Position numbers and translations under genes: made by a program | The notes under the pieces: generated by a model | What the model was told of the DNA's origin: nothing | What the model saw: the letters and a program-made list of their open reading frames with translations, nothing else | Databases searched by the model: none | Part shown: one piece after another, positions 16,456 to 32,984 of the stretch | How the letters are laid out: every line of letters begins with the position of its first letter | How positions within the stretch are numbered: the first letter of the stretch is position 1 | NCBI GenBank assembly: GCA_025350905.1 | Contig: JANXWY010000099.1 | Location: forward strand, 1 to 34,654 | Direction of reading: 5' to 3' | Source: Verrucomicrobiota bacterium | GTDB lineage: Bacteria > Verrucomicrobiota > Verrucomicrobiia > Limisphaerales > JADLHS01 | Length of the DNA: 34,654 nucleotides

Positions 16456-16725
16456 TTGCCGCCGCCGCTTGACACTAAAGTGTTATAGCGCCGCGGCCAG
16501 TTCGGATTGAACACCCTGACATATTAATATGACTCCAACCGGCCAAGCAACCTCGACCAAGAAATTAGGCCTCTCAACCTGGGGTTGCCCAATTCAAATA
16601 TTCTTTGCTCCAATATGAATTGTCCGGCGGCATAGAAACGCGATTGCGACTGACGACCCGGCAGGGAAAGAAACGGCGGCAAGTTTTGCTCGTCGCGAGT
16701 TTCGTTTTCGAGCAGCATGCATCAC

Positions 16726-17400
16726 ATGCGCATCCTTGTGGTGGAGGACGAGAAGAAGACCGCCTCTTTTATTCGCAAGGCGCTCCAAGCCGAGGGCTTT
16801 GCCGTGGATGTCTGCCCTAACGGCAATGAGGTTCTGGCGGCGGTCAGCACCACCGCTTTTGACGGCATCATCCTCGACATCATGTTGCCGGGGCGCGACG
16901 GCTTGAGTGTGCTTCGTCAATTGCGTCAGCGCAGCGACACCACGCCCGTGCTGTTGCTTTCGGCGCGCGGAGAAGTGAACGAACGCGTGGACGGCCTCAA
17001 CGCGGGCGCCGATGATTATCTGCCAAAACCCTTCGTCATCGCCGAACTCGTCGCCCGCATCCGCGCGCTCGGTCGGCGCAGCGGCGAAACAAAATCAACC
17101 GTTTTGCGACTGTCCGATCTGCTCCTGGATACCGTCACCCACGAAGCGCGCCGCCAAGAGACGCGGATCGAACTGACAACGCGCGAATATCTACTTTTGG
17201 AATTTTTGCTCCGCTCCGCCGGGCGCATTTGCAGTCGCATGGCGATCCTCGAAAAAGTTTGGAACTATGATTTCGACCCGGGCTCAAACCTAGTGGATGT
17301 CTATATCAAACGCGTGCGCGAGAAAATTGATGACGCGTTTGAACCCAAACTGCTCCATACCGTGCGCGGTATCGGTTATGTCATGAAGGAAACTCCATGA
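16726..17400 (+). CDS. OmpR-family response regulator
   Basis: The receiver domain (residues 1-115) starts with MRILVVEDE, carries the phospho-acceptor Asp near residue 51 in GIILDIMLPG, Ser of LLLSARG and the conserved Lys of YLPKPF. The C-terminal winged helix (about 130-222) has ELTTREYLLLEFLL and the recognition segment SNLVDVYIKRVREKID, ending HTVRGIGYVMKE. It is closest in layout to the CusR/CopR/QseB group. The ATG at 16717 would add three residues (MHH). I prefer 16726 since MRILVVEDE is the common start. The stop overlaps the kinase start by ATGA. The flanking direct repeats suggest that it regulates both neighbours. Confidence 0.93.
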   Translation: MRILVVEDEKKTASFIRKALQAEGFAVDVCPNGNEVLAAVSTTAFDGIILDIMLPGRDGLSVLRQLRQRSDTTPVLLLSARGEVNERVDGLNAGADDYLPKPFVIAELVARIRALGRRSGETKSTVLRLSDLLLDTVTHEARRQETRIELTTREYLLLEFLLRSAGRICSRMAILEKVWNYDFDPGSNLVDVYIKRVREKIDDAFEPKLLHTVRGIGYVMKETP

Positions 17401-18464
17401 CCATCCGCACGCGCCTCAATCTCTGGTACGCGGCAATCCTTTGTCTCACTTTGCTGGTGATGGCCGGTTTGTCCTACAATGAATTCGTGGTAGAAAAGCG
17501 CGAGCCCCGACCCGCGGAAGAAACTTCCGCCAACCAGGACGTGGCCGACCTCGTCGGGATTCTTTGCGTAACGGTCCTGCCCGCCGTCCTGTTTGGCCTG
17601 CTGGGCGGATGGTGGCTTACGCGACAGGCGCTCGCCCCCGTGGCGGCCCTCACAAAAGCAGCCGAACGAATTCACGAACGCAATCTGCACGAACAACTGC
17701 CACGCTCCCGCAACGGCGACGAACTGGACCGACTCACGGAGGTTTTCAATGCCATGACCGCGCGGCTCAATGGCTCGTTCCAGCGTATCCGCGAATTTAC
17801 CCTGCACGCGTCGCATGAACTCAAGACCCCGCTCACCATTCTGCACGCGGAAATGGAAACGGCCATGACGGAAGAACCCCTGACCGCGAGTCAACGCGAG
17901 CGGATTGCCAGTGAGTTGGACGAGGTCCAGCGGCTCACCAAAATAGTGGACGGGCTCACCCTGCTCACCAAGGCAGATGCCGGTCAGATTCAATTGAAGC
18001 GCGAACCGCTCCAATTTGATGACATCGTGCGCGATGTTTTTGCCGACGCACAAATCCTTGCCAAACCCGCAAACATCGAAGTCCAGCTCACGAACTGCGA
18101 ACGGGTCATAATTCAAGGGGACCGCCATCGCTTGCGGCAACTGCTGTTGAACCTGGTGGACAACGCCATCAAATACAACACACCGGGCGGACTGGTGAAC
18201 ATCGCCTTGACGCGCGTGGCTCAGTACGCCGAACTGCTGGTCACCAACACCGGGCCGGGGATTCCCGCCGAGTCGTTGACGCGCGTCTTCGACCGGTTTT
18301 ATCGTGCGGACCCGGCCCATGGTGATGAGGTCGAGGGCTGTGGCCTCGGCTTGAGCATCGCGCAATGGATCACCTCGGCGCACGATGGCTCGGTCAAAAT
18401 CAAATCCGCGCCAGCCGGACAAACAATCGTCACCGTGCGCCTGCCCGAGGCGGTGGCAACATGA
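17397..18464 (+). CDS. Sensor histidine kinase (HAMP-HisKA-HATPase)
   Basis: The 355-residue kinase has a first membrane segment (residues 8-25), a short periplasmic stretch of about 30 residues, a second membrane segment (about 50-75, ILCVTVLPAVLFGLLGGWWL) and a HAMP linker. The HisKA helix follows, with SHELKTPLTILHAEME containing the phospho-accepting His near residue 142. The ATPase has the N box NLVDNAIKYN (about 251), the G1 region NTGPGIP and the G2 loop GCGLGLSIA (about 314). The sensor loop is unusually small, which is common for kinases that sense through the membrane or through an accessory protein, here perhaps the PepSY protein. It is co-transcribed with the regulator. Confidence 0.93.
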   Translation: MTIRTRLNLWYAAILCLTLLVMAGLSYNEFVVEKREPRPAEETSANQDVADLVGILCVTVLPAVLFGLLGGWWLTRQALAPVAALTKAAERIHERNLHEQLPRSRNGDELDRLTEVFNAMTARLNGSFQRIREFTLHASHELKTPLTILHAEMETAMTEEPLTASQRERIASELDEVQRLTKIVDGLTLLTKADAGQIQLKREPLQFDDIVRDVFADAQILAKPANIEVQLTNCERVIIQGDRHRLRQLLLNLVDNAIKYNTPGGLVNIALTRVAQYAELLVTNTGPGIPAESLTRVFDRFYRADPAHGDEVEGCGLGLSIAQWITSAHDGSVKIKSAPAGQTIVTVRLPEAVAT

Positions 18465-18472
18465 CAAAACTG

Positions 18473-18500
18473 TCATCCGCGGTTCACCTGCGGTTCATCT
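18473..18500 (+). promoter_or_regulatory. Tandem 11-bp direct repeats, candidate response-regulator operator
   Basis: GCGGTTCACCT (18479-18489) is followed directly by GCGGTTCATCT (18490-18500), identical at 10 of 11 positions. A third TCA in the same phase lies at 18473-18475. The core is TTCAC-N6-TTCAT, the same arrangement as at 15863. It is about 100 bases upstream of the beta-propeller gene, which heads the efflux cluster. Confidence 0.5.
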
Positions 18501-18601
18501 CGATCTGCTACAAGTGATGGGTTCCAAGTCGTGAAAAATAACCAAAGATTTGCAGGCCGACTTCAACTGATGAGCGGTGGGTCGAAAAACAATTATTTAC
18601 C

Positions 18602-19723
18602 ATGAACAACAGCAATCATGTTTCTCGCGTCTTGCTGGTGGCTGGAATCGGGATGTTGGCGGCCAGCGGGGTGGGCCAGACCGCTTCCGCCGTTGAGCCG
18701 TACAAAATAGTCAACACCGCCCAGATCATGGGTACGGGCGGAATTGATTATGTCTCGGCGGACAACGATGACCGCCGCCTTTATGTTCCGCGCGGCGGTG
18801 AAGTACTGGTCTTTGACCTGGACACGCTCCAGTCGGTCGGTTCCATCGCCAATGCCCGGGCGCGCGGCGCGGCGGTGGACCCCAAGTCCCACCATGGATT
18901 CAGCAGCAGCAGTCCCGTCGTTATGTGGGATTCCAAATCACTCGAAACGATCACGACCATTCCCGTGCAAGGCCGCCCGGACGGCATTCTCTTTGAACCT
19001 TTGACGGAACGAATTTATGTTTTCAGCCATAGCGCCCCCAACGTTACGGTGATGGATGCCAAAGATGGTACCATCGTCGGTACAATTGATCTTGGCGGCG
19101 CGCCGGAGCAGGCGCAGAGCGACGGCCATGGCCATCTCTACGTTGACGTTGAAGACAAGAACCGCCTGGCCGTGGTGGATGTGAACACGCTCAAGGTGAC
19201 GGCGCATTATGAACTCGGCGAAAAAGGCGACGGCCCGGCCGGTCTGGGGCTGGACGCAAAAAATCATATTCTGTTCGCCATGTGCCACAGCCAAAACTGT
19301 GTCGTCCTTAATGCTGACAACGGAAAAATTCTGGCCACCCTGCCTATCGGCAAAGGCACCGACGGCGGCGGGTTCAATCCCGCCACCATGGAAGCGTTTA
19401 GTTCCCAAGGCGATGGCACGTTGACCATCATCAAGGAAACCAGTCCGACTAGTTTTGAAGTCGAGCAAATCGTAACCACCAAGTCGCGCGCCAAAACTTG
19501 TACGCTCGACACCAAAAGCAACCAGATTATTTTGATCACCACCGAACCCGCCCCGGCTGGTGCGGCCGCGGCAACCGCAATTACAACAGCTACAACAGCT
19601 CCACAAACTGCCTTGGCATCACCGCCGGCCGACCCGAACCAACCCGCTGGCGGGCGACGTGACGGACGCGGCGGCGGCAACAACGGCCCGTCAATGCTTG
19701 ATATTCTCGTCGTTGGGCGGTAG
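18602..19723 (+). CDS. Secreted beta-propeller protein (YncE/YVTN-like)
   Basis: After a signal peptide (VLLVAGIGMLAASGVGQTASA) come about seven beta-propeller blades with the repeating pattern of a residue pair followed by V-x-D-x-x-T. Examples are RRLYVPRGGEVLVFDLDTL, KDGTIVGTIDLGGAPEQAQS, LYVDVEDKNRLAVVDVNTLK and HSQNCVVLNADNGKILATLP. Members are periplasmic and bind metal or protein partners, and this kind often precedes a tripartite efflux operon. Between the last blade and the closing strand (MLDILVVGR) lies a low-complexity insert of about 45 residues rich in Ala, Thr, Pro, Arg and Gly. It lies 137 bases after the kinase gene and downstream of the tandem operator repeats, so it is probably under the regulator's control. 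There is no clear ribosome-binding site. Confidence 0.8.
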   Translation: MNNSNHVSRVLLVAGIGMLAASGVGQTASAVEPYKIVNTAQIMGTGGIDYVSADNDDRRLYVPRGGEVLVFDLDTLQSVGSIANARARGAAVDPKSHHGFSSSSPVVMWDSKSLETITTIPVQGRPDGILFEPLTERIYVFSHSAPNVTVMDAKDGTIVGTIDLGGAPEQAQSDGHGHLYVDVEDKNRLAVVDVNTLKVTAHYELGEKGDGPAGLGLDAKNHILFAMCHSQNCVVLNADNGKILATLPIGKGTDGGGFNPATMEAFSSQGDGTLTIIKETSPTSFEVEQIVTTKSRAKTCTLDTKSNQIILITTEPAPAGAAAATAITTATTAPQTALASPPADPNQPAGGRRDGRGGGNNGPSMLDILVVGR

Positions 19724-19809
19724 ACATACGAAGTTTTCGGCCGCGACAACCTTTTGGGTTTTGCATGGAAACACTTCGGCGTTGAAATGATTGGCCATAA
19801 CCTGTCGCT

Positions 19810-21213
19810 GTGAAGCATTGGTCTATCATACTGGGAATCGTCCTGCTGGCGGGCTGCGCTCGCTTTCAGTCCCAACTCATTTCCCCGGCGGAATCGGCCG
19901 CCAAACTGGAAAGCCGTTCGCTCACAAACGCAGTCCTCAAAGCGTATCTCGAAAACAATCTCCATCGCGAGCTCTCCCCCTGGCCAACGACGCAGTGGGA
20001 TTTGGAAATGCTCACGCTCGCGGCGTTTTACTATCAGCCGGGTCTGGAAGTCGCGCGGGCGCAGTGGCGTGTGGCGCAGGCGGAAGTCCAAACCGCCGGG
20101 GGACGACCCAATCCCACGCTCACCGCGGGTCCGGGGTACAACTTCAGCGCGGCCGGCGGCCTCACGCCATGGATGCCGTTTGGCTCCCTGGACCTGCCAA
20201 TTGAGACGGCAGGCAAGCGCCGTCATCGCATTGCGCGCGCCGAACATTTGTCCGCCGCCGTGCGGTTGAACCTTGCCACGACGGCATGGTCGGTGCGCAG
20301 CAGCGTGCGGGCGGGCCTGCTCGACGTCGCGACGGCCCGACGCCGCGCGGATATTTTGTCAGCCCAAACTTCCTTGGCTCAGCAAATCGTCGTTTCACTG
20401 GAACAACGCCGACAGGCCGGCGCGACTTCCGGCGCGGAACTCGGCGTCGCGCACGTCGCCCGAGCCAGGACCCAGACCGAGCTAGCCGACGCCCGCCGCC
20501 AACTGGCGGAGGCCAACGCGCGCGTGGCGGAAGCGGTGGGGATTCAATTGGACGCATTGAACGGGATCGAGTTGAGTTTCAATCTTTCCCAACTTCCGGC
20601 GTGGGACGAACTGACTTCCGCGACCGTTCGCGAGCAAGCGTTGCAAAAGCGCACGGACATTTTGGGGGCGCTCGCCGGGTACGCCGCGAGCCAGTCGGCG
20701 CTGCAACTTGAAATCGCAAAACAATACCCCGACATCCACCTAAACCCGGGCTACCAGTGGGATCAGGGCGAAAACAAATGGCAGCTCGGCCTCACCGCCG
20801 AACTGCCGGTCTTCAACCAGAACCAAGGCCCGATTACGGAAGCCCGCGCGCGGTGCGCGGAATCCGCCGCGCGCTTCGAGGCGGCGCAGGCGAAGGCCAT
20901 TGCGGAAATTGACCGTGCGACGGCGGAGCTGGGTGCGTGCCGAACCAACGCCAGCGCGGTGCAAGGGTTGGCCGCCGCGTACCAAAGCCAGCGTGAGTCC
21001 GTAGCGGCACAAGTCCGGGCAGGCGCGACGGAACCATTGGATTTGCTGAACGCACAGTTGGAATCCGGTGCGGTCGCGTTGGCTGAACTTGAGGTGCAGA
21101 TGAAGTTACAGCAAGCCATCGGCGCATGGGAAGACGCGGTACAACGGCCACTCAACCTGCCCACCACCGCCTTCGAGTCATCGCCGAACCAGGAAAAGGA
21201 GCAATCAAAGTGA
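19810..21213 (+). CDS. Outer-membrane efflux protein (TolC/CzcC-type lipoprotein)
   Basis: The GTG start is followed by a lipobox-like sequence (ILGIVLLAGCARF), so the mature protein should be lipidated on Cys near residue 16. The rest is the two-repeat TolC layout: long helices (ARAQWRVAQAEVQTAGGRPN, ATTAWSVRSSVRAGLLDVAT, ELADARRQLAEANARVAEAV) and beta strands that insert into the outer membrane (NPTLTAGPGYNFSAAGG and DIHLNPGYQWDQGENKWQLG). The Pro-Asn/Asp-Pro turns that start each beta hairpin are visible. Length 467 is normal. The product is the exit duct of the RND pump encoded behind it, and its stop overlaps the adaptor start by GTGA. Confidence 0.9.
   Translation: MKHWSIILGIVLLAGCARFQSQLISPAESAAKLESRSLTNAVLKAYLENNLHRELSPWPTTQWDLEMLTLAAFYYQPGLEVARAQWRVAQAEVQTAGGRPNPTLTAGPGYNFSAAGGLTPWMPFGSLDLPIETAGKRRHRIARAEHLSAAVRLNLATTAWSVRSSVRAGLLDVATARRRADILSAQTSLAQQIVVSLEQRRQAGATSGAELGVAHVARARTQTELADARRQLAEANARVAEAVGIQLDALNGIELSFNLSQLPAWDELTSATVREQALQKRTDILGALAGYAASQSALQLEIAKQYPDIHLNPGYQWDQGENKWQLGLTAELPVFNQNQGPITEARARCAESAARFEAAQAKAIAEIDRATAELGACRTNASAVQGLAAAYQSQRESVAAQVRAGATEPLDLLNAQLESGAVALAELEVQMKLQQAIGAWEDAVQRPLNLPTTAFESSPNQEKEQSK
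21194..21201 (+). promoter_or_regulatory. Ribosome-binding site that fixes the adaptor start
   Basis: AAAAGGAG ends 8 bases before the GTG at 21210. It is one of the few strong sites in the window and marks the adaptor start inside the end of the TolC-like gene, in preference to an ATG at 21126. Confidence 0.7.
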
Positions 21214-22238
21214 ACAAATATTTTGCGACCATCTTCGTCATGTCCCCCGCACTCGCAATTCTCAGTTGCTCGCCTTCCAGTCGGGAAAAACCCACCGAAG
21301 CGACGGCGGAAAAACCGGCCGAACCGGAATCGCGCGTGCAGCACGGTACGAACGGCGAAACCATCATCAAACTCGATGCCGTGACTCAAAAAACCATGGG
21401 TTTGGAAATGACGCCCCTCGCCGCGGCGGAGCTGGCGCCCGAGGTGAAATGCTTCGGGCGGGTGGTTGACCCCGCACCGTTGGCCGAAATGCTCATGGAA
21501 CTGGGCAAGGCGCAACTGGTCTTCGACAACTCGCATCAAGAGTTAGAGCGGATGAAAGTCTTAAAACAGGAGAACAACGCTTCGGAGCGCGCCTTTCAAA
21601 CGGCGGAGCTGATGTATCGTCAAAATAGCGGCGAGGTCAGCGCGATCTGGTTCAAGCTGCAAAAGAACTTTGGCGGCCGAATCGCTGAGCTTACCGGACC
21701 GATGGTTCTCCCGCCCGGGACGCAGCGAAAACCTGGCCTACTAGATGAGATTGCGGACGCACGCGGAGTTTTTCTGATCCGCGTAGACATGCCGGTGGCG
21801 GAGACTTTGAATTTTGCCCCAACCGGCGCCCGGATCTTGGGTTTGGCCGATGGCGCATGGCCGGTTCCAGCTTCCTCCTTCGGTGCGGTTCCGGCCGTTG
21901 ACCCGCTAACTCAGACGCGCGGTTACTTCTTTTTGGCGACCACCAATCAGCCGCCACTGATCCCAGGCATGGCGGTGACCGCTTTCATCCAGACGGAAGC
22001 GCAAGCGCAGTCCGGCGTGATCGTACCGCGCAACGCCGTCGTGCGCTGCAATGGGGCCTCGTGGGTTTATCTTCAGACCGGTGATGAAACCTGGCAACGA
22101 GTCGAAGTCAAACTGGATCGCCCACTCGCCGCCGGGTATTTCGTTCGCGAAAAATTAAAACCGCAGGACCCGGTCGTCACGGTCGGCGCCCAGCAGTTGC
22201 TCTCCGAGGAACTCAAGGGACCGAGCACCGGAGATTAG
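21210..22238 (+). CDS. RND efflux periplasmic adaptor (short, lipoyl-poor type)
   Basis: The adaptor links the inner-membrane pump to the outer-membrane duct. It begins with a lipobox (SPALAILSC), followed by a charged spacer. The core lacks the usual two lipoyl half-motifs. Instead, FGRVVDPAPLAEMLMELGKA leads straight into a helical hairpin (about residues 91-155), then a beta-barrel part (FLIRVDMPVAETL) and a membrane-proximal part (GVIVPRNAVVRCNGASWVYL, QTGDETWQRVEVKLDRPL, VTVGAQQLLSEELKG). At 342 residues it is shorter than CusB or CzcB. I believe this layout occurs in other beta-propeller-linked RND operons. The GTG start overlaps the preceding stop and has a strong ribosome-binding site. 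Only 5 bases separate it from the pump gene. Confidence 0.82.
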   Translation: MNKYFATIFVMSPALAILSCSPSSREKPTEATAEKPAEPESRVQHGTNGETIIKLDAVTQKTMGLEMTPLAAAELAPEVKCFGRVVDPAPLAEMLMELGKAQLVFDNSHQELERMKVLKQENNASERAFQTAELMYRQNSGEVSAIWFKLQKNFGGRIAELTGPMVLPPGTQRKPGLLDEIADARGVFLIRVDMPVAETLNFAPTGARILGLADGAWPVPASSFGAVPAVDPLTQTRGYFFLATTNQPPLIPGMAVTAFIQTEAQAQSGVIVPRNAVVRCNGASWVYLQTGDETWQRVEVKLDRPLAAGYFVREKLKPQDPVVTVGAQQLLSEELKGPSTGD

Positions 22239-22243
22239 CCTCG

Positions 22244-25200
22244 ATGCTGCAAGCGCTCGTCCAATTTTCGCTCAAGTTTCGCGGCCTCGTGGTGGCGCTC
22301 GCGGGCGTGTTGTTGTCGTACGGCTTCTACGTCGCCAGAAACGCGAAGCTGGATGTTTTTCCAAACTTCGTGCAACCGCAGGTTGAGATTCAGACCGAAG
22401 CCCCGGGACTTTCGCCGGAACAGGTCGAAATGCTGGTAACGCGCCCCATCGAGACCACCGTAAATGGCCTTGGCGATCTGGCCTCACTCCGTTCGGAGTC
22501 GATCGAGGGACTTTCCATCGTGACGGTGGTGTTCCAGGAAGGCGTCGATATTTTCCGGGCGCGCCAGACACTCGGCGAACAACTGTCCGAGCTGGCCGGG
22601 GCATTACCGGCCGGCGCCAAGACGCCGCGCATGTCGCCGCTCACGTCGTCCACGATGGATTTGCTGAAAGTCGGCCTGGTGTCGGCCAGCCTCTCGCCGA
22701 TGGAACTGCGGACGTTCGCGGATTGGACCCTCAAGCCGCGCTTGCTGGCCGTGCCGGGCGTGGCGCGGTGCATCGTGTTCGGCGGCGAGGTGCGGCAATT
22801 GCAGATTCAGGTCTTACCCGAACGCATGCTGGCCTACGGCCTCGCGCTTTCGGACGTGTTGTCGGCCGCGCGCGTCGCGACGGGGGTGACGGGGGCGGGG
22901 TTCATCGAGACGCGCAATCAACGCATCACAATCCAGACCGAAGGCCAGGCGCTCACGCCGGACGTGCTCGGGGAGGTCGTTGTCACGCACAACAACGGTT
23001 TCAGTGTTCGGCTGAAGGACGTGGCGCGCGTGGCCGAGGGCGCCGAACCGAAGTCTGGCGACGCGGTGATACAGGGCCAACCTGGCGTGCTGCTGGCGAC
23101 GGCCAGCCAGTACGGCGCGAATACGCTGGAAGTAACCCTGGCAGTAGAAGCGGCGTTGGCCGAAATGCAGCCGGTGTTCGCGCAGGCGGGCATCGAAGTT
23201 TTCCCACGCCTGCACCGGCCCGCGTCCTTCATCGAGGCCGCCCTCAAGAACATGAAACACTCGCTGGCCCTGGGCGGAATTCTGGTGGCGGTCGTGTTAT
23301 TCCTGCTGCTCGGCAGCGTGCGCTCGGCGATCATTTCGCTGACGGCGATTCCGATTTCACTGCTCACCGCCGTGATCGTGCTCCAAAAATGCGGCATCAC
23401 CCTCAATACCATCACGCTCGGCGGGCTGGTCATCGCCCTCGGCGCGGTGGTGGACGATTCGATCATTGACGTGGAAAACATTTCCCGGCGGCTGCGCGAA
23501 AATAAAGCCCGCGCGCTTCCCCGCCCGGTCAGCCGCGTGATTCTGCTGGCGTCACTCGAAGTGCGACGGGCGATTGTGTTCGCCACGTTCATCGTCGCGC
23601 TGGTGTTTCTGCCGGTACTGACGCTGACGGGCTTGCAGGGCAGTTTCTTTGCGCCACTCGCGTTGAGTTACATTCTCGCGATCCTGGCGTCATTGGGGGT
23701 CGCACTCACGCTAACGCCAGCGCTGGCGTATCTGTTTTTCGACCAGGGCGCGGCCCAGCTCGACGAGCCGCGCCTGCAAGCTTGGTTGAAAAAGAGCTAC
23801 GGGCACACGCTCGGTTTTGTCACGCGCTGGCCCCGCGTCATTCTGGCGGTCGTGGCGGCGGGGTGCCTCGGCGCCCTGACGCTGCTGCCACACGGCGGGG
23901 AATTTCTGCCCGAATTTCGCGAAGGCCATTTCGTGATCCAAGTTTCCACCGCGCCGGGTACGTCACTGGCGGAAATGCTGCGGATCGGAACGCTGATTTC
24001 CCGAAAACTCCTCGCAGACACCAACCGCATTGCCACGGTCGAACAACAGGCCGGGCGGGCGGAACAAGGCGAGGATGCCTGGTCGCCGAACCGCAGCGAA
24101 TTTCATGTCGAGCTGTCGCCGATTTCCGGGGCGGAGCAGAAACGGATCGCCGATGACATCCGCAACGTGCTCAAACAGTTTCCCGGTCTCCAGTTTGAAG
24201 TGCTGACGTTTCTGGGCGACCGCATCAGTGAGACCATCTCCGGCGAGACCGCGCCCGTGGTCGTGAACCTTTTCGGCGATGATCTGGACGGGCTCGACGC
24301 GAAAGCGCGGGAAGTGGCCGACGTGCTCTCCTCCATCACCGGCCACGCAGACGTGCAGGTGAAATCGCCCCCCGGCGCCCCACGCATCGCCGTTCGCCTG
24401 CGCCCCGACCGGATGACGCAATTCGGTTTTCGTCCCGTCGAAGTGCTGGAGGCGATTCAAGCCGCCTATCAAGGAACGGTGGTGGCGCAGACCCATCGCG
24501 CGAATCAAGCCACCGACGTGGCGGTGATGCTCGACGAGCGCGACCGGCAAGACCCGGAAGCCATTGGCTCGTTGCGGTTGCGCAGTCCGCAGGGCGCCCT
24601 GCTGCCGTTGCGCGAACTGGCGGAGATTTATCCCACGAGCGGCCGCCCGGCCATCCGGCACGAAGGCGCGCGCCGCCGGCAAACGGTGACGTGCGCGACG
24701 AGCGGCCGCGACGTGAGTTCGTTCGTGGTGGAAGCCAAGCAACAAGTCGCGGCGAAAATAAAATTTACCGCCGGCACTTACGCGGTGTTCAGCGGCGCGG
24801 CCGAGGCGAAGGAAAAAGCGCAGCGCGAACTCCTGCTGCACTCGGCCATCGCCGCCGTGGGCATCTTGTTGCTCCTGACGATGGTGTTCCACAACTGGCG
24901 CAACCTGCTGCTCCTGCTGGTGAACGTGCCGTTCGCGCTGGTCGGTGGCGTGCTGGCCGTGTGGGTGAGCCAAAGACTTTCGCCGGGCGATGGTGGCCTG
25001 ACCATCGGCTCGCTGGTCGGGTTCGTGACGTTGTTCGGCATCACGATGCGTAACTCAATTATGATGATTTCGCACTTTGATCATCTGGTGCAAGAGGAAG
25101 GCCTGACTTGGGGACCCGCTGCGGCCCGGCGCGGGGCCGCAGAACGCCTGATGCCAATTCTGATGACGGCCACGGTGACCGCGCTGGGGCTGTTGCCGCT

Positions 25201-25354
25201 GGCTCTCGGCAGCGGCGAAGCCGGCCGCGAGATTGAGGGGCCGATGGCCATCGTGATTCTCGGCGGCTTGATTACTTCCACCGCGCTCAATTTGTTGGTG
25301 CTGCCGACGCTGGCGCTACGCTTCGGGAGATTTGAAAAAACGGTTGCTGGGTAG
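22244..25354 (+). CDS. RND efflux pump, heavy-metal-efflux/CusA-CzcA-like
   Basis: The 1036-residue inner-membrane pump uses the proton gradient to expel substrates through the adaptor and duct. It has the standard twelve-helix duplicated plan. The first helix is followed by PQVEIQTEAPGLSPEQVEML, the porter domains by LTSSTMDLLKVGLVSASLSP and NQRITIQTEGQALTPDVLGE, and helix 4 reads GAVVDDSIIDVENISRRLRE. In CzcA-type pumps helix 4 carries D-x(5)-D-x(6)-E. Here the first Asp is replaced and there is a neighbouring Asp pair as in AcrB-type drug pumps, plus the conserved Glu. The second half closes with GITMRNSIMMISH and ITSTALNLLVLPTLAL. A metal, drug or organic acid substrate cannot be decided from sequence. 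Confidence 0.9.
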   Translation: MLQALVQFSLKFRGLVVALAGVLLSYGFYVARNAKLDVFPNFVQPQVEIQTEAPGLSPEQVEMLVTRPIETTVNGLGDLASLRSESIEGLSIVTVVFQEGVDIFRARQTLGEQLSELAGALPAGAKTPRMSPLTSSTMDLLKVGLVSASLSPMELRTFADWTLKPRLLAVPGVARCIVFGGEVRQLQIQVLPERMLAYGLALSDVLSAARVATGVTGAGFIETRNQRITIQTEGQALTPDVLGEVVVTHNNGFSVRLKDVARVAEGAEPKSGDAVIQGQPGVLLATASQYGANTLEVTLAVEAALAEMQPVFAQAGIEVFPRLHRPASFIEAALKNMKHSLALGGILVAVVLFLLLGSVRSAIISLTAIPISLLTAVIVLQKCGITLNTITLGGLVIALGAVVDDSIIDVENISRRLRENKARALPRPVSRVILLASLEVRRAIVFATFIVALVFLPVLTLTGLQGSFFAPLALSYILAILASLGVALTLTPALAYLFFDQGAAQLDEPRLQAWLKKSYGHTLGFVTRWPRVILAVVAAGCLGALTLLPHGGEFLPEFREGHFVIQVSTAPGTSLAEMLRIGTLISRKLLADTNRIATVEQQAGRAEQGEDAWSPNRSEFHVELSPISGAEQKRIADDIRNVLKQFPGLQFEVLTFLGDRISETISGETAPVVVNLFGDDLDGLDAKAREVADVLSSITGHADVQVKSPPGAPRIAVRLRPDRMTQFGFRPVEVLEAIQAAYQGTVVAQTHRANQATDVAVMLDERDRQDPEAIGSLRLRSPQGALLPLRELAEIYPTSGRPAIRHEGARRRQTVTCATSGRDVSSFVVEAKQQVAAKIKFTAGTYAVFSGAAEAKEKAQRELLLHSAIAAVGILLLLTMVFHNWRNLLLLLVNVPFALVGGVLAVWVSQRLSPGDGGLTIGSLVGFVTLFGITMRNSIMMISHFDHLVQEEGLTWGPAAARRGAAERLMPILMTATVTALGLLPLALGSGEAGREIEGPMAIVILGGLITSTALNLLVLPTLALRFGRFEKTVAG

Positions 25355-27881: not shown

Positions 27882-28868
27882 TCACCGCTCCACGGCTTGC
27901 TTGTAGTTCTGAATCCCTTCGGTAATGGCCCGCGCCATCTGCCGACGGTACTCGGCGGTAAAAATTTTTTTCCCCTCTTCGGGATGGGACAGAAAGCCCG
28001 CCTCGATGAGGACGGCGGGCATGGTCGCCTCGCGCAACACCTCAAAGCGCGCGCGCCGCACGCCGCGATCGTCGCTTTGCAACCCGCGCAGGAGGGCCTT
28101 TTGGATTTGATACGCGAGCAGGAGGTTCTTGCCATTGGTGCGATTGCCGGGGAACGCGCCCGTCTGCACGCCCTCCCCGCGGGCGTTGGTCGACGCCGCA
28201 CCGGCGGGCGTCAGGCAATACACCTCCGAGCCGCGCGCCTCCCCGCGTCCGCTTTCGGCGGCGTTGAAGTGCAGGCTAACGAACAAATCCGCATTGGCGC
28301 GGCGCGCGAAATCCGGACGATCGGAACGTTCGACAAAATTATCGCTCGTCCGGGTGAGCAACACTTTGAAGCCGGCTTGTTTGAGCTGATCGCGCAATTC
28401 GAACGCCAGCCGCAGCGTGTAATCCTTCTCCTGGCGACCCGGGAGCCGGTTGCCGGGGTCTTTGCCACCGTGCCCGGGATCGAGGCAGATGGTCTTGAGG
28501 CGCTTCCCCGGCGGACTGAGCCCGGGCGACAGTAACGGATGCAAGGTGGCCTCCACATCGAGTTGCGAGACATACCAGTCGCCGGCACGGGCCGCCAACG
28601 GGTAGAGCAGCCAGACCTGCAGCCCATTAACGCGAGCCTCCCGCGAATCCACCGTAAACTGCAAACGCGTCGTCCGATTCGTGAGCAGGAACGATTCGTC
28701 ACGTTTAAGCCAGCGCCAGCCCAAGCCTTGCCAGCGCGCCCATTCCGCAAGCCGGACGTAGCCCGTGTCGTGGAGGCGAGCCGTCAATGGTTGCGCCCGC
28801 GCACACCGCGGCGCCGCGAGACCGACGCAAATCGTCAGCCAGAGCGCAACCGGGTAAACACCTTTCAT
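27882..28868 (-). CDS. N-acetylmuramoyl-L-alanine amidase (Amidase_3)
   Basis: The enzyme cleaves the amide between muramic acid and the peptide stem in the periplasm, for daughter-cell separation or wall recycling. A signal peptide (VALWLTICVGLAAPRCARA) is followed by about 100 residues of an AMIN-like or SH3-like region. The zinc-dependent amidase domain starts at about residue 125. Its ligands are His in CLDPGHGGKDPG (about 132), Glu in RQEKDYTLRLA and His in FVSLHFNAAE (about 198). The catalytic Glu is in LIEAGFLSHPEE (about 288). The domain carries a loop (SEVYCLTPAGAASTN) typical of AmiC-like enzymes. It follows the GNAT-aminotransferase gene by 54 bases and is probably in the same operon. 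Confidence 0.92.
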   Translation of the reverse strand: MKGVYPVALWLTICVGLAAPRCARAQPLTARLHDTGYVRLAEWARWQGLGWRWLKRDESFLLTNRTTRLQFTVDSREARVNGLQVWLLYPLAARAGDWYVSQLDVEATLHPLLSPGLSPPGKRLKTICLDPGHGGKDPGNRLPGRQEKDYTLRLAFELRDQLKQAGFKVLLTRTSDNFVERSDRPDFARRANADLFVSLHFNAAESGRGEARGSEVYCLTPAGAASTNARGEGVQTGAFPGNRTNGKNLLLAYQIQKALLRGLQSDDRGVRRARFEVLREATMPAVLIEAGFLSHPEEGKKIFTAEYRRQMARAITEGIQNYKQAVER

Positions 28869-28922: not shown

Positions 28923-30584
28923 TCAGCCCGCCGGGCGCAATAAGTCGCCGCGCTGAGGGCGCGATGGCTCCCGACCAACGCGCCGCAAAGCGTTCAGCAG
29001 CGCGTCCGTTTTCTCGCGGGCAATCTCGCCCATGAGGCAGATCTGAATCCAATTGTTGCGTCGGAGATATTCGCTGTGGTAACTGAGCAGGAAGCCCGCT
29101 TCCTGCATCAACCGGCCGAGGGTTAAGGAATTTAATTCCGGCGGAAGCGCGACGGTGATGACGGCCGGCGAAGTCCGCGCCGCGCCGCCGACGAGGTCAA
29201 AGTTCAACTCCTGGAGTTGCACCCGCAACCGGGCGGAAGTTTCCTGGAGCTCGGCATAGCGTTGCTCCCAATCGACGCCCCGCACCGCCGCGTTGAGCGC
29301 ATGCAGCAAATTCGACGAAAACGTGAAGGGCACCCCCGCCGCCGCCGCGTAGAGACCGAGATCGAGATAGCAGGGCAATGGCGCGTTCGCGGACTGGACG
29401 GGGTGCTGATAGAAGACCATCGCGACGCCCGGATACGCGCGCAGCCCCTTCCCGCTGGCACCGGACGCGAGATGCACGCCAGTAAGATCCACCGGCAACG
29501 TGCCCAAACTGCTGATGGCGTCGAGACAAAGTTTGGTGCCGTATTGACTACACAAGAGTTTGAGCGCGGCGAGGTCGTTCAGCACGCCGGTGGAAGTTTC
29601 GCAGTGTGCGCACCAGAGCCAGGTGGGGGAAGGAACGTCGGCAAGTTTGGCCGCCACCTGCGCCAGATCCAGCGGCGCGCCCCAAGAAAACTCCAGATGC
29701 TCGAAGCGCAGCTGGAACCGGCGCGCATGATCCGCCAGGCGCACTCCAAATTCGCCGTTGCTTAACACGAGGCCCGGGCCAGGCCCCAATGAAAGCTGGG
29801 CCGCTACGACATCATTCGCCAGAGTCCCCGAGCCGAGCAAAAGCGCGACGTGAGCCATCTGGGTGAGGTCGCAAAGCGTCTGCTTGGTGTTCTCCACCTC
29901 GGCTGTGAAAGCGTCGGCGCGGTGTGATTCCGGGGCCTGTTCGAAAGCACGACGAACTTCCCGCCGCACCGCCACCGGGCCGGGCAGAAAATTTACCGCG
30001 CTCGGCTGAAAGGATCTGGCCGGGGCTGAGCGGAGGAATTCGCGGGCGGTAACTTCAAAGGTTTCCAAGGTGACAAACATGGGCTGGAAGCGCGCGTCCC
30101 CCGTGCCCACCACCGGACCAAACGGTACGAAACCAAGGTGCTGGTACAACCGGGCCTGCCGCAGCGTGCCGGAAATGATCGCCAGATCGTAGCCTCTCTC
30201 AATCCCGTGCTGCCACAGCAACGCCAGCAGGCCGGACAGAATCTGGCCACCGCGCGCGCCACGATATTTTGAGTCAATCGCCAGCAAACGAATTTCGCAA
30301 ATGCGACGACCAGCCGGCAGGTGGCGATCGAGCTCAGGCAATTTCTGGTCGAGCGAGAACGGGCGATGACCACGCGCCGCCAGCATGCCGACGATTTTCT
30401 GGTTGGTGAGGCAGATCAAATAAGTGTTCTCCGCGTGGAATTTGTCCACGAGCCGATGCGTGGGTGAAGCCTGATGTTGCGGAATCTCCTCGACGAAGGT
30501 GCGATAGTTGAGCCGGTGGATCTGCTCGAACTCCCAGTCCTCGGCGGCAAATTTGAAAATAAGGGGGGAAGGAGTACGACTCAT
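28923..30584 (-). CDS. Fusion of a GNAT-type acyltransferase with a class-V PLP aminotransferase
   Basis: Residues 1-190 form a GNAT-like domain with AENTYLICLTNQKIVGMLAA, RICEIRLLAIDSKYRGARGG (the CoA-phosphate loop RGARGGQ) and RLYQHLGFVPFGPVVG. The fold has the extra FRPFSLDQ-like segment and length seen in N-acyl amino acid or acyl-homoserine-type synthases. Residues 197-553 are a class-V aminotransferase of the alanine-glyoxylate/aspartate family: VNFLPGPVAVRREVRRAF, LLLGSGTLANDVVAAQLS, CHCETSTGV-type segments, LCLDAISSLGTLPVD and the PLP Lys in SGASGKGLRAYPG (about residue 379). Each half looks intact. The start overlaps the PlsY-like gene by ATGA. The role is unknown to me. An acylated amino acid or lipid head group is a reasonable guess from the gene pair. 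Confidence 0.82.
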   Translation of the reverse strand: MSRTPSPLIFKFAAEDWEFEQIHRLNYRTFVEEIPQHQASPTHRLVDKFHAENTYLICLTNQKIVGMLAARGHRPFSLDQKLPELDRHLPAGRRICEIRLLAIDSKYRGARGGQILSGLLALLWQHGIERGYDLAIISGTLRQARLYQHLGFVPFGPVVGTGDARFQPMFVTLETFEVTAREFLRSAPARSFQPSAVNFLPGPVAVRREVRRAFEQAPESHRADAFTAEVENTKQTLCDLTQMAHVALLLGSGTLANDVVAAQLSLGPGPGLVLSNGEFGVRLADHARRFQLRFEHLEFSWGAPLDLAQVAAKLADVPSPTWLWCAHCETSTGVLNDLAALKLLCSQYGTKLCLDAISSLGTLPVDLTGVHLASGASGKGLRAYPGVAMVFYQHPVQSANAPLPCYLDLGLYAAAAGVPFTFSSNLLHALNAAVRGVDWEQRYAELQETSARLRVQLQELNFDLVGGAARTSPAVITVALPPELNSLTLGRLMQEAGFLLSYHSEYLRRNNWIQICLMGEIAREKTDALLNALRRVGREPSRPQRGDLLRPAG

Positions 30585-31228
30585 GGTGCGGGATCAGGCG
30601 AATGCGGGACTGGACGTCGGCGTCCGGCGAATTCAGGAATCTCCGCCCTCAGATTTTTCCGGTGCGCAAACCAGACCACGGCGATCAGGCCGCCGACCAG
30701 AACGACTTGCGTACCATCCTGGCGAAACCACCAAACGGTAAATGGCAGGACGAGATAAGCCAACAGTCCCGGCAAAACCGTCCGCCGCATCAGCGCCCAC
30801 AAGACCGCGAAGGCCGCTAGATAGATCAGAGCGGAGTGCCATTCAAAGATCAGCAACCCGCCGAGCGAAGTGGCCACGCCCTTCCCGCCGCGAAAACCAA
30901 GTTGCACCGGCCAGACGTGCCCCATGGTGACGGCCAGCAAAGCCATTGCCGCCAGGACTTCCTGGCCGGTCAAATGTCTCGCGATCCAGACCGCCAGCGC
31001 ACCTTTCCCAAAATCGGCCAGCAACGTAATGCCCAGACCACTCCGCCCCAGCACCCGGCCCACATTGCGCGCGCCAATGCTGCCGCTCCCCATTTCGTGA
31101 AGGTCGCGACCGGTCTGGGCCCGCACGAGATAGTAACCGAGGCAAACGCAACCGAGCCCGTACGCCCCACCCAGATACGCCAACCCGTGGAGTGCGCCTG
31201 TTGATTGCATTTGCCCGGACCAAGCCAT
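30581..31228 (-). CDS. plsY: PlsY-like glycerol-3-phosphate acyltransferase
   Basis: PlsY transfers an acyl group from acyl phosphate to glycerol-3-phosphate, the first step of phospholipid synthesis, in the inner membrane. The 215-residue protein has about five to six membrane segments. The first catalytic block reads GSGSIGARNVGR (about residues 47-58, usually GSGNxGATN), the second FRGGKGVAT (about 109-117) and the third AHRKNLRAEI (usually HRxNIxR). The changes in the first block (Asn to Ser and Thr to Arg) are unusual, so a paralogue with another acceptor cannot be excluded. An N-terminal extension of about 20 residues precedes the first membrane segment. The stop overlaps the start of the GNAT-aminotransferase gene. 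It is transcribed divergently from the methyltransferase. Confidence 0.85.
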   Translation of the reverse strand: MAWSGQMQSTGALHGLAYLGGAYGLGCVCLGYYLVRAQTGRDLHEMGSGSIGARNVGRVLGRSGLGITLLADFGKGALAVWIARHLTGQEVLAAMALLAVTMGHVWPVQLGFRGGKGVATSLGGLLIFEWHSALIYLAAFAVLWALMRRTVLPGLLAYLVLPFTVWWFRQDGTQVVLVGGLIAVVWFAHRKNLRAEIPEFAGRRRPVPHSPDPAP

Positions 31229-31616
31229 GTTTGAAAAATCGCACGGAGTTCGCCTCCGTCAGTCGAGAGCTCACCACACGCGGTTTTGCGGATTAAAGCG
31301 AAAGACCGCACCGCGAGCGAGAAGTTTCTTGACCCAGACGGGAGGGACGCGGTTCCCCCCCATTTGGGCTGGACCGAGCGCGAAGCAACTCACAGCCGAC
31401 GAGGCGGCGGGGTCACTCCCACCCTCACCCTGTGCCCGGGCACTGAGCCCAGCCAAATTTAGATCGGTTCGATGTGCGCCGGCGAATGGCGCAGGTCGCC
31501 GGCGTGAATCAAACGCCGGAAGGTGCCGAAAATCACCTGCGCTTGAAGCCAAACTTTTCCAAGGCCCACGTCGGAGCTTGCTCGGACGCACAATCATTGT
31601 TCTTATTTCCGCCGAC
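31229..31616. other. 388-bp divergent intergenic region
   Basis: This separates plsY from the methyltransferase. The methyltransferase frame is open back to 31227, but that part is Arg/Pro-rich without any domain and looks like chance. A stretch near 31406-31443 (CCCACCCTCACCCTG followed by a GCCCGGGC palindrome) is repeat-like. I see no RNA gene or clear promoter. Confidence 0.4.
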
Positions 31617-32984
31617 ATGTTACCTAGTTTCACCCAACCGCTGCTGTTGGATTTGAGTCCAGCGAACCCCGGTTTACCGCGGCCAATGACGATTGATTTG
31701 GCTTCCGAACTCGCCGCCTTCCGGGAATTTGGCCAAGCCACGCGCCAAATTTTCACGCAGAGCGAAGCCGGTTCGACGCCAACGTTCGTCAACGAATTCT
31801 GGACCGCCCGCCAGCGCCAGGCCAGCTCGCTCCAGGAAGTCTCCTATCGGGCCTGCTTCAAACCCCAACTCCCGCGCTTCTTCATCGAGCGGCTCACCCA
31901 ACGCGGGGAGGTCGTTTATGATCCGTTCATGGGGCGGGGTACGACGCCGATTGAAGCCGCGCTGCTGGGGCGGGTCCCGTTTGGTAACGACATCAATCCG
32001 CTCAGTCTTACCTTCACCCGTCCGCGACTGCGCCCGCCTTTACTCGCCGAGCTCGCTGCGCGGCTGGCGGAGATTGACCTCACGGACCACGACGAATTTC
32101 CAGAGGACTTGCTGGTCTTCTACCATCCGGAAACCCTGCGCGAAATCTGCGCGTTGAAAAAGTATTTCCTCTCCGCGCGGCGCCCGGCGCCTCTGCGAGG
32201 GGATGAACTTGCGACCGGAAAACTTTCAGGACCGCTTCCGCGGCTGAAGCGCGCGGCGCTGCAGCGGACCGCATTCCTGGACCCGCTCGATGATTGGCTT
32301 TGCATGGTCGCCCTGAATCGGCTCACCGGCCACTCCTCCGGATTCTTTTCCGTGTACACCCTGCCCCCCAATCAGGCCGTTTCCATCAAAGCCCAACGCA
32401 AAATCAACGAGAAGCGAAACCAAGTCCCGCCGCGCCGCCTCGTGCCACCCATCCTGCTCAAAAAATCCAAACAGCTGCTTGGCGATGTCACCCCCTCGGT
32501 GCGCGACCAGCTGGCCGGCGTGGCGGCCCGCGCGCAATTCACCAACACCGCGGCCGACCGCACGAGCGAACTGCCCGCCCAATCCGTGACGCTCGTCGTG
32601 ACCTCGCCGCCATTTCTCGATGTCGTCCAATACGCGGACGACAATTGGCTACGCTGCTGGTTTCTCGGGATTGACCCCAAAACCGTCGCGCTCACGGTGC
32701 CTAAAAAGCTCGAAGTTTGGGCGGCGGCCATGACCTCGGTTTTTCACGAGCTGCACCGCGTTTTGAAACCCGGCGGCCACATCGCCTTTGAAGTCGGCGA
32801 AGTTCACGGTGGCAAAACGAAACTGGAGGAGACGGTGCTGCCGTGCGGCGTCGCGGCCGGCCTCGAACCGGTGCTGGTGCTCGTCAACGATCAGACATTT
32901 ACCAAGACGGCCAACTGCTGGGGCGTGGACAACATGAGCAAAGGGACGAACACCAACCGTATCATCTTATTTAGGAAGCGTTGA
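31617..32984 (+). CDS. Orphan DNA methyltransferase (N4-cytosine/N6-adenine type)
   Basis: The enzyme methylates a DNA base with S-adenosylmethionine. The cofactor-binding motif I reads YDPFMGRGTTPIEAALLGR (about residue 100) and leads into GNDINPLS. About 220 residues later come the catalytic motif IV, TSPPFLDVVQYADDNWLR (about 329), and a following HELHRVLKPGGHIAFEVGEV. The order I, a long middle part, IV fits alpha-type enzymes, with the target-recognition region between them. TSPPF allows either N4-cytosine or N6-adenine as the product. I chose the ATG at 31617. The next in-frame ATG (31686) would drop 23 residues before the first conserved segment, and neither has a clear ribosome-binding site. 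No restriction endonuclease gene is adjacent. Confidence 0.8.
   Translation: MLPSFTQPLLLDLSPANPGLPRPMTIDLASELAAFREFGQATRQIFTQSEAGSTPTFVNEFWTARQRQASSLQEVSYRACFKPQLPRFFIERLTQRGEVVYDPFMGRGTTPIEAALLGRVPFGNDINPLSLTFTRPRLRPPLLAELAARLAEIDLTDHDEFPEDLLVFYHPETLREICALKKYFLSARRPAPLRGDELATGKLSGPLPRLKRAALQRTAFLDPLDDWLCMVALNRLTGHSSGFFSVYTLPPNQAVSIKAQRKINEKRNQVPPRRLVPPILLKKSKQLLGDVTPSVRDQLAGVAARAQFTNTAADRTSELPAQSVTLVVTSPPFLDVVQYADDNWLRCWFLGIDPKTVALTVPKKLEVWAAAMTSVFHELHRVLKPGGHIAFEVGEVHGGKTKLEETVLPCGVAAGLEPVLVLVNDQTFTKTANCWGVDNMSKGTNTNRIILFRKR

Follow-up and report, generated by a model that had tools for sequence, protein, structure and literature searches.

A diverged PlsY paralogue and a GNAT–aminotransferase fusion as a candidate operon for serinol phospholipid backbones

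The acylated backbone of a phospholipid derived from serinol (2-amino-1,3-propanediol) could be made by a two-gene operon located in the window (the whole stretch of 34,654 nucleotides analyzed); the probability of this reading is estimated at about 0.6. In the usual view, phospholipids are built on glycerol or sphingoid backbones. The reading starts from the linkage of the genes, the identity of the PlsY subfamily, residue replacements and protein folds, all of which are observed; from these we infer all substrates, the acyl donor, the order of the second and third steps and the final lipid.

The first gene of the pair, plsY2 (30581..31228, minus strand), encodes a PlsY paralogue of 215 aa matching PF02660. 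The second (28923..30584, minus strand, ATG start) encodes a 553-aa protein in which profile matches place a GNAT N-acyltransferase at the N-terminus and a class-V aminotransferase at the C-terminus. On the coding strand the plsY2 stop and the fusion start share the letters ATGA (30581..30584, minus strand), which suggests translational coupling. Both features, namely two intact domains in one 553-aa frame and an ATG overlapping the stop of a plsY-like gene, had been described in the sequence-only reading, and they are confirmed here with exact coordinates by the profiles, the sequence and an AlphaFold2 model (mean pLDDT 92 for the whole fusion). Since full-length homologues of the fusion (40–81% identity) occur in many phyla and the identical 4-base plsY/fusion overlap recurs in about 19 surveyed loci, the arrangement is far beyond chance.

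What the substrate may be is indicated most strongly by the residue pattern of PlsY2. In the structures of Aquifex PlsY, the phosphate of glycerol-3-phosphate (G3P) is clamped by Ser35, Arg45, Lys104 and Asn180, its 2-hydroxyl is bound by Ser142 and His177, and the residues that bind acyl phosphate include His92 and Thr41 (PMC5700162). According to the alignment to 5xj5, PlsY2 of the window keeps Ser35, Arg45, Lys104, Asn180, His92 and His177; the same residues are retained in most of 81 operon copies, Asn180 less uniformly than the others. Position 142 is Ser in 40 of 40 canonical enzymes, while the operon copies carry Gly (66), Ala (10), Met (4) or, in locus L006 only, Ser. Position 41 is likewise Thr in 40/40 canonical enzymes and Arg or Lys in 62 of the 81 operon copies. 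In the window these positions are occupied by Gly154 (30767..30769, minus strand), replacing the 2-hydroxyl ligand, and by Arg54 (31067..31069, minus strand), replacing the ligand of the acyl-phosphate carbonyl. Because the phosphate clamp is kept and Ser142 is lost, the acceptor of PlsY2 is probably phosphorylated and lacks a free 2-hydroxyl. The replacement of Ser142 is also the reason why PlsY2 is not classed as a G3P-specific PlsY; it scores 131 bits against PF02660 (cut-off 24.1) and 120.7 bits against the PlsY equivalog TIGR00023, under the cut-off of 137.2.

Searching GTDB genome contigs with the fusion gave 78 loci, and 76 loci with the GNAT were scored for an accompanying PlsY. Of these 76, 55 from at least 7 phyla have PlsY together with the GNAT gene, on the same strand and nearly always directly upstream; an adjacency unique to this genome would have weakened the sequence-only reading, and it is not unique. 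Two further loci end at a contig boundary, and 19 have adequate flanks and no adjacent PlsY, including 12 of the 30 loci from Bacilli. Among 58 genomes of the window's order, a PlsY over the family cut-off is present in 51 and a second, lower-scoring PlsY in 14, and all 14 second copies adjoin the fusion or its GNAT half. The window genome conforms to this pattern: its canonical PlsY (181.6 bits) lies on contig C177, and plsY2 is the second copy. A canonical PlsY is also present in the operon genomes examined, and the two-PlsY pattern recurs in Bacillus, Peribacillus, Desulfosporosinus, Planctomycetota and Chloroflexota; three carriers without adjacent plsY have one PlsY only. For a tree, PlsY sequences were assigned to the operon or the canonical type by gene context only, not by sequence. 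In this unrooted tree, in which the bootstrap is not fully settled and long rows occur among the Bacilli in several cases, a branch with support of 100/98 divides 53 operon PlsYs from 41 canonical ones, and plsY2 of the window falls on the operon side of it.

The GNAT half (residues 1–190; 30015..30584, minus strand) is of the FeeM/AHL-synthase type. It matches the FeeM profile PF21926 at residues 21–157 (38.6–41.5 bits, cut-off 27), as do 28 of 28 family members (E 0.001); Acetyltransf_5 is over its cut-off as well, and other GNAT models also match. This half was folded separately (pLDDT 92), because the aminotransferase filled the list of fold matches to the whole model. The best fold match is FeeM (2g0b; Z 18.9, rmsd 3.0, 177 residues), followed by LasI (Z 18.2), other AHL synthases and an acetyltransferase (17.5 over 142), so that the margin of FeeM over other GNATs is small; OlsB is not among the fold matches listed for this half, an absence that carries no weight against it. 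Long-chain N-acylation is thus the likely activity as judged from profile and model, and the proposed kinship with long-chain N-acyltransferases holds up, the best match being no characterized acetyltransferase. FeeM and the AHL synthases (LasI, BjaI) share with this half the GNAT variant fold and the expected long-chain acyl transfer to an amine. They differ in that the GNAT here is fused to or paired with an aminotransferase and PlsY, and its acceptor is probably serinol phosphate instead of Tyr or SAM. The 555-aa PDB chain 9os7 was considered as a solved GNAT–aminotransferase fusion and rejected: according to its title it is a methionyl-tRNA synthetase of Mycoplasma fused to ancillary domains at the N-terminus, and it showed no match to the GNAT half.

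The C-terminal half (residues 197–540; 28965..29996, minus strand) is a class-V PLP aminotransferase of the AGAT/AEP-transaminase type, as judged by the Aminotran_5 profile (over its cut-off), by the fold and by Lys379 (29448..29450, minus strand), which is invariant in the family and aligns with the Schiff-base lysine of AEPT and AGAT. The best profile match is TIGR03301 (residues 199–534, E 6e-43) with 147.5 bits (cut-off 360.8), and the AEP transaminase equivalog TIGR02326 reaches 95.3 bits against 400.8. Of the enzymes compared by sequence, AEP transaminases are the nearest. With PhnW and AGAT this half shares the fold (Z about 42), the PLP lysine and the motifs surrounding it; unlike them, it does not reach the equivalog cut-offs and carries Gln514 (29043..29045, minus strand) in place of the substrate Arg. 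Gln occupies this position in 127 of 127 scorable GNAT-linked aminotransferases, and Arg occupies it in 26 of 27 unlinked class-V enzymes. The aligned residue of 1M32 is R340, the Arg that holds the substrate carboxylate or phosphonate in enzymes of this group. Since Gln replaces it, the linked enzymes do not grip such a group in the usual way, and Gln514 would be compatible with a different substrate, for example DHAP.

In the proposed pathway, the aminotransferase half would convert DHAP to serinol phosphate, which is G3P with an amino group instead of the 2-hydroxyl. The GNAT half would then N-acylate serinol phosphate, for which either acyl-ACP or acyl-CoA would donate the long acyl chain. 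Finally, PlsY2 would transfer an acyl group from acyl phosphate produced by PlsX, which is present in the window genome, onto the C1 hydroxyl, just as the canonical enzyme acylates G3P. N-acylation seems more likely to come first, since in a 1-O-acyl-2-amino compound the acyl group would be prone to migrate to nitrogen. The product would be 1-O-acyl-2-N-acyl-serinol phosphate, an amide analogue of phosphatidic acid with the amide at position 2, so that the GNAT would take the place of PlsC at this position. From there the usual CDP-linked routes of head-group attachment could take over. The kept phosphate clamp and the lost Ser142 are what an acceptor with a phosphate and without a 2-hydroxyl would need, which supports the serinol-phosphate route. 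The PlsX/PlsY/PlsC pathway resembles this scheme in the PlsY family (PF02660), the kept phosphate clamp and acyl-phosphate His and the two acylations expected on a C3 phosphate. It differs in that PlsY2 forms a separate subfamily without Ser142 and often without Thr41, and its partner is a GNAT with an aminotransferase, not PlsC.

Single reactions of this scheme have been described elsewhere. Transamination of DHAP to serinol phosphate is known for RtxA of B. elkanii (PMC3222319) and Cj1437 of C. jejuni (PMC11800397); the first reaction proposed here is identical, whereas these enzymes serve the synthesis of rhizobitoxine and of the capsule. N-acylation of serinol is known for hm-NAS of Gemella, which makes N-palmitoyl serinol (PMC11271093) and is likened here by its described product. 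Serinophospholipids themselves were first described by Vyssotski et al. in 2025 (J Nat Prod 88:373), in what appears to be a relative of the window's bacterium. In a 2026 paper (PMC13388977), a large share of the membrane lipid of certain thermophiles is assigned to a diacylated serine-derived backbone, and Limisphaera ngatamarikiensis and Vyssotski et al. are cited. Such a backbone is the end product expected here, and Limisphaera is the type genus of Limisphaerales, the order with which the nearest relative of the window in the contig scan is labeled. Theirs is a chemical finding, and the proposed link from the operon to these lipids is drawn from taxonomy and chemistry instead of a direct match; Vyssotski et al. 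2025 may already have proposed the genes.

Several other readings of the gene pair have to be weighed. The sequence-only reading had offered an acylated amino acid or a non-standard lipid head group as the product; the lipid idea is partly right, with the backbone instead of the head group as the part concerned, and an acylated amino acid or a head group as the product is less supported. An aminolipid or N-acyl amino acid similar to ornithine, glycine or serine lipids would be formed if the aminotransferase supplied an amino acid, the GNAT N-acylated it and PlsY2 O-acylated a hydroxyl. FeeM, the best fold match, synthesizes N-acyl amino acids, and Ala, Ser and Gly are substrates of class-V relatives; yet where these relatives have their carboxylate-binding Arg, every linked copy that could be scored carries Gln, and the phosphate clamp kept in PlsY2 would be unneeded for an amino-acid acceptor, which leaves such a product unlikely. 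The Gemella hm-NAS gene, too, fuses an N-acyl synthase with an aminotransferase, and the pair could by analogy be a synthase of free N-acyl serinol, perhaps a signal, with PlsY2 a mere accessory or feeding another lipid. The reported Gemella product is indeed the free compound; against its extension to the present operon stand a dedicated, diverged PlsY subfamily alongside the GNAT over many phyla and the remaining partners, which are phospholipid-type enzymes, and this explanation appears just as doubtful.

Less probable is a phosphonolipid whose amine would be 2-aminoethylphosphonate (AEP) or a close phosphonate. The AEP transaminase models do give the best scores of the aminotransferase half, but these scores fall well short of the cut-offs given above, AEP has no hydroxyl for PlsY2, and PEP mutase, on which the synthesis of AEP depends, exceeds its cut-off in only 1 of 10 operon genomes; none was found in the window genome. 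An incidental adjacency of a housekeeping PlsY and an unrelated fusion is strongly disfavoured. Some loci do lack PlsY, and the amidase gene downstream of the fusion in the window did not appear among the gene clusters that the loci share; the PlsY in question, though, is a second, diverged copy with the housekeeping copy elsewhere, and the adjacency goes together with both the position in the tree and the residue signature. The serinol phospholipid is the preferred reading.

The distribution of the GNAT/aminotransferase family is broad yet patchy. The scan loci belong to Verrucomicrobiota, Planctomycetota, Chloroflexota, Acidobacteriota and Bacillota (Bacillus, Peribacillus, Desulfosporosinus), and further to deltaproteobacterial groups, Thermodesulfobacteriota, Dadabacteria, Hydrogenedentota and Sumerlaeota; the names are given as recorded, many denote metagenome bins, and individual placements could be in error. 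Of 293 sampled genomes of the window's order, 59 carry the family, either as the fusion or as the GNAT half. The family occurs in 51 of 398 genomes sampled from the class of Bacillus salacetis, in 14 of 294 from the phylum of a Phycisphaerae bin and in 1 of 301 from the phylum of a Dehalococcoidia bin, where the sole carrier is the genome on which the sample was centered. Three genomes of the phylum of G060 carry the family, one fused and two split.

Separate adjoining genes for the GNAT and the aminotransferase are also found in L096, L102/L153 and L152, and such adjacent split genes favour a functional linkage instead of opposing it. A GNAT half alone (about 200 aa), with no aminotransferase half, occurs in L020, L021, G765:C207, G862, G802, G876 and G914; in L020, L021 and G765, which represent some families of the window's order, plsY2 lies directly upstream of it. 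Separation of the two domains, named in advance as a point against the sequence-only reading, thus does occur in part, but the split genes stand next to each other. In the families with PlsY2 and GNAT alone, the amine would have to come from elsewhere or be a different one. Generally, for loci without the aminotransferase or without PlsY, either the amines and acyltransferases are encoded elsewhere or the family has more than one product.

The chances are judged to be even that this is a dedicated serinophospholipid operon, defining a third class of phospholipid backbone parallel to that of PlsX/Y/C and patchily distributed over at least 7 phyla, including cultured Bacilli and Desulfosporosinus. 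We know of no report of serinophospholipids from Bacilli or Desulfosporosinus. If the proposal is true, the genes would be candidates for, and markers predicting, serinophospholipid makers, and their occurrence suggests that many bacteria of soil and sediment, and many spore formers, contain these lipids. The question could be tested directly in culturable Bacilli. The second PlsY of carrier genomes would also be explained, and the loss of Ser142 would serve as a signature for recognizing PlsY2.

Further partner genes in the surveyed loci point to glycerolipid-type chemistry. A PlsC-family gene follows the separate GNAT and aminotransferase genes in L153 and lies directly upstream in L092. LplT-Aas-like proteins of about 1135 aa (MFS/acyltransferase/AMP-ligase) are encoded upstream of plsY2 and the fusion in unrelated phyla (L053 145–3546, L074 953–4360, L080 929–4351), and L058, a locus lacking PlsY, encodes an AMP-ligase/PP-binding/acyltransferase protein next in line. 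The Bacillaceae have an LTA synthase-family gene directly downstream of the fusion (L094 6596–8446, where it overlaps the fusion stop; L089 6593–8446; L227 7605–9458), and an LTA synthase is annotated at this site in Cytobacillus spongiae. This arrangement suggests that the Bacillaceae lipid may be the anchor or substrate of a teichoic-acid-like polymer.

Many fusions of Bacilli have no adjoining PlsY and an FAD oxidoreductase instead. In L172, L175, L176, L178, L180 and L182, an oxidoreductase-like gene (about 371–394 aa), FAD-dependent as judged from the N-terminal motif, replaces PlsY before the fusion, and a convergent gene similar to helix-turn-helix regulators follows it. In several Verrucomicrobiota, a related MFS transporter gene comes after plsY2-fusion or plsY2-GNAT (L021 2189–3511, L052 6590–7951, L054 5091–6347, L055 2739–3959, L057 7004–8194, L059 5244–6527); the copy of L156 also matches the OATP family. 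A lipid exporter is a possible role for this transporter.

In the window, an N-acetylmuramoyl-L-alanine amidase gene (27882–28868, minus strand) lies 54 bases downstream of the fusion on the same strand. The amidase is not among the gene clusters common to the surveyed loci, and neighbours in the window can therefore be incidental. On the other side of the pair, a divergent frame (31227–32984, plus strand) matches N6/N4 DNA methylases (PF01555) in two stretches, and its listed start is probably too early. Farther away (16717–25354, plus strand), a response regulator, a histidine kinase, an outer-membrane efflux protein and an AcrB-type RND pump are encoded in a row, forming an ordinary-looking efflux locus.
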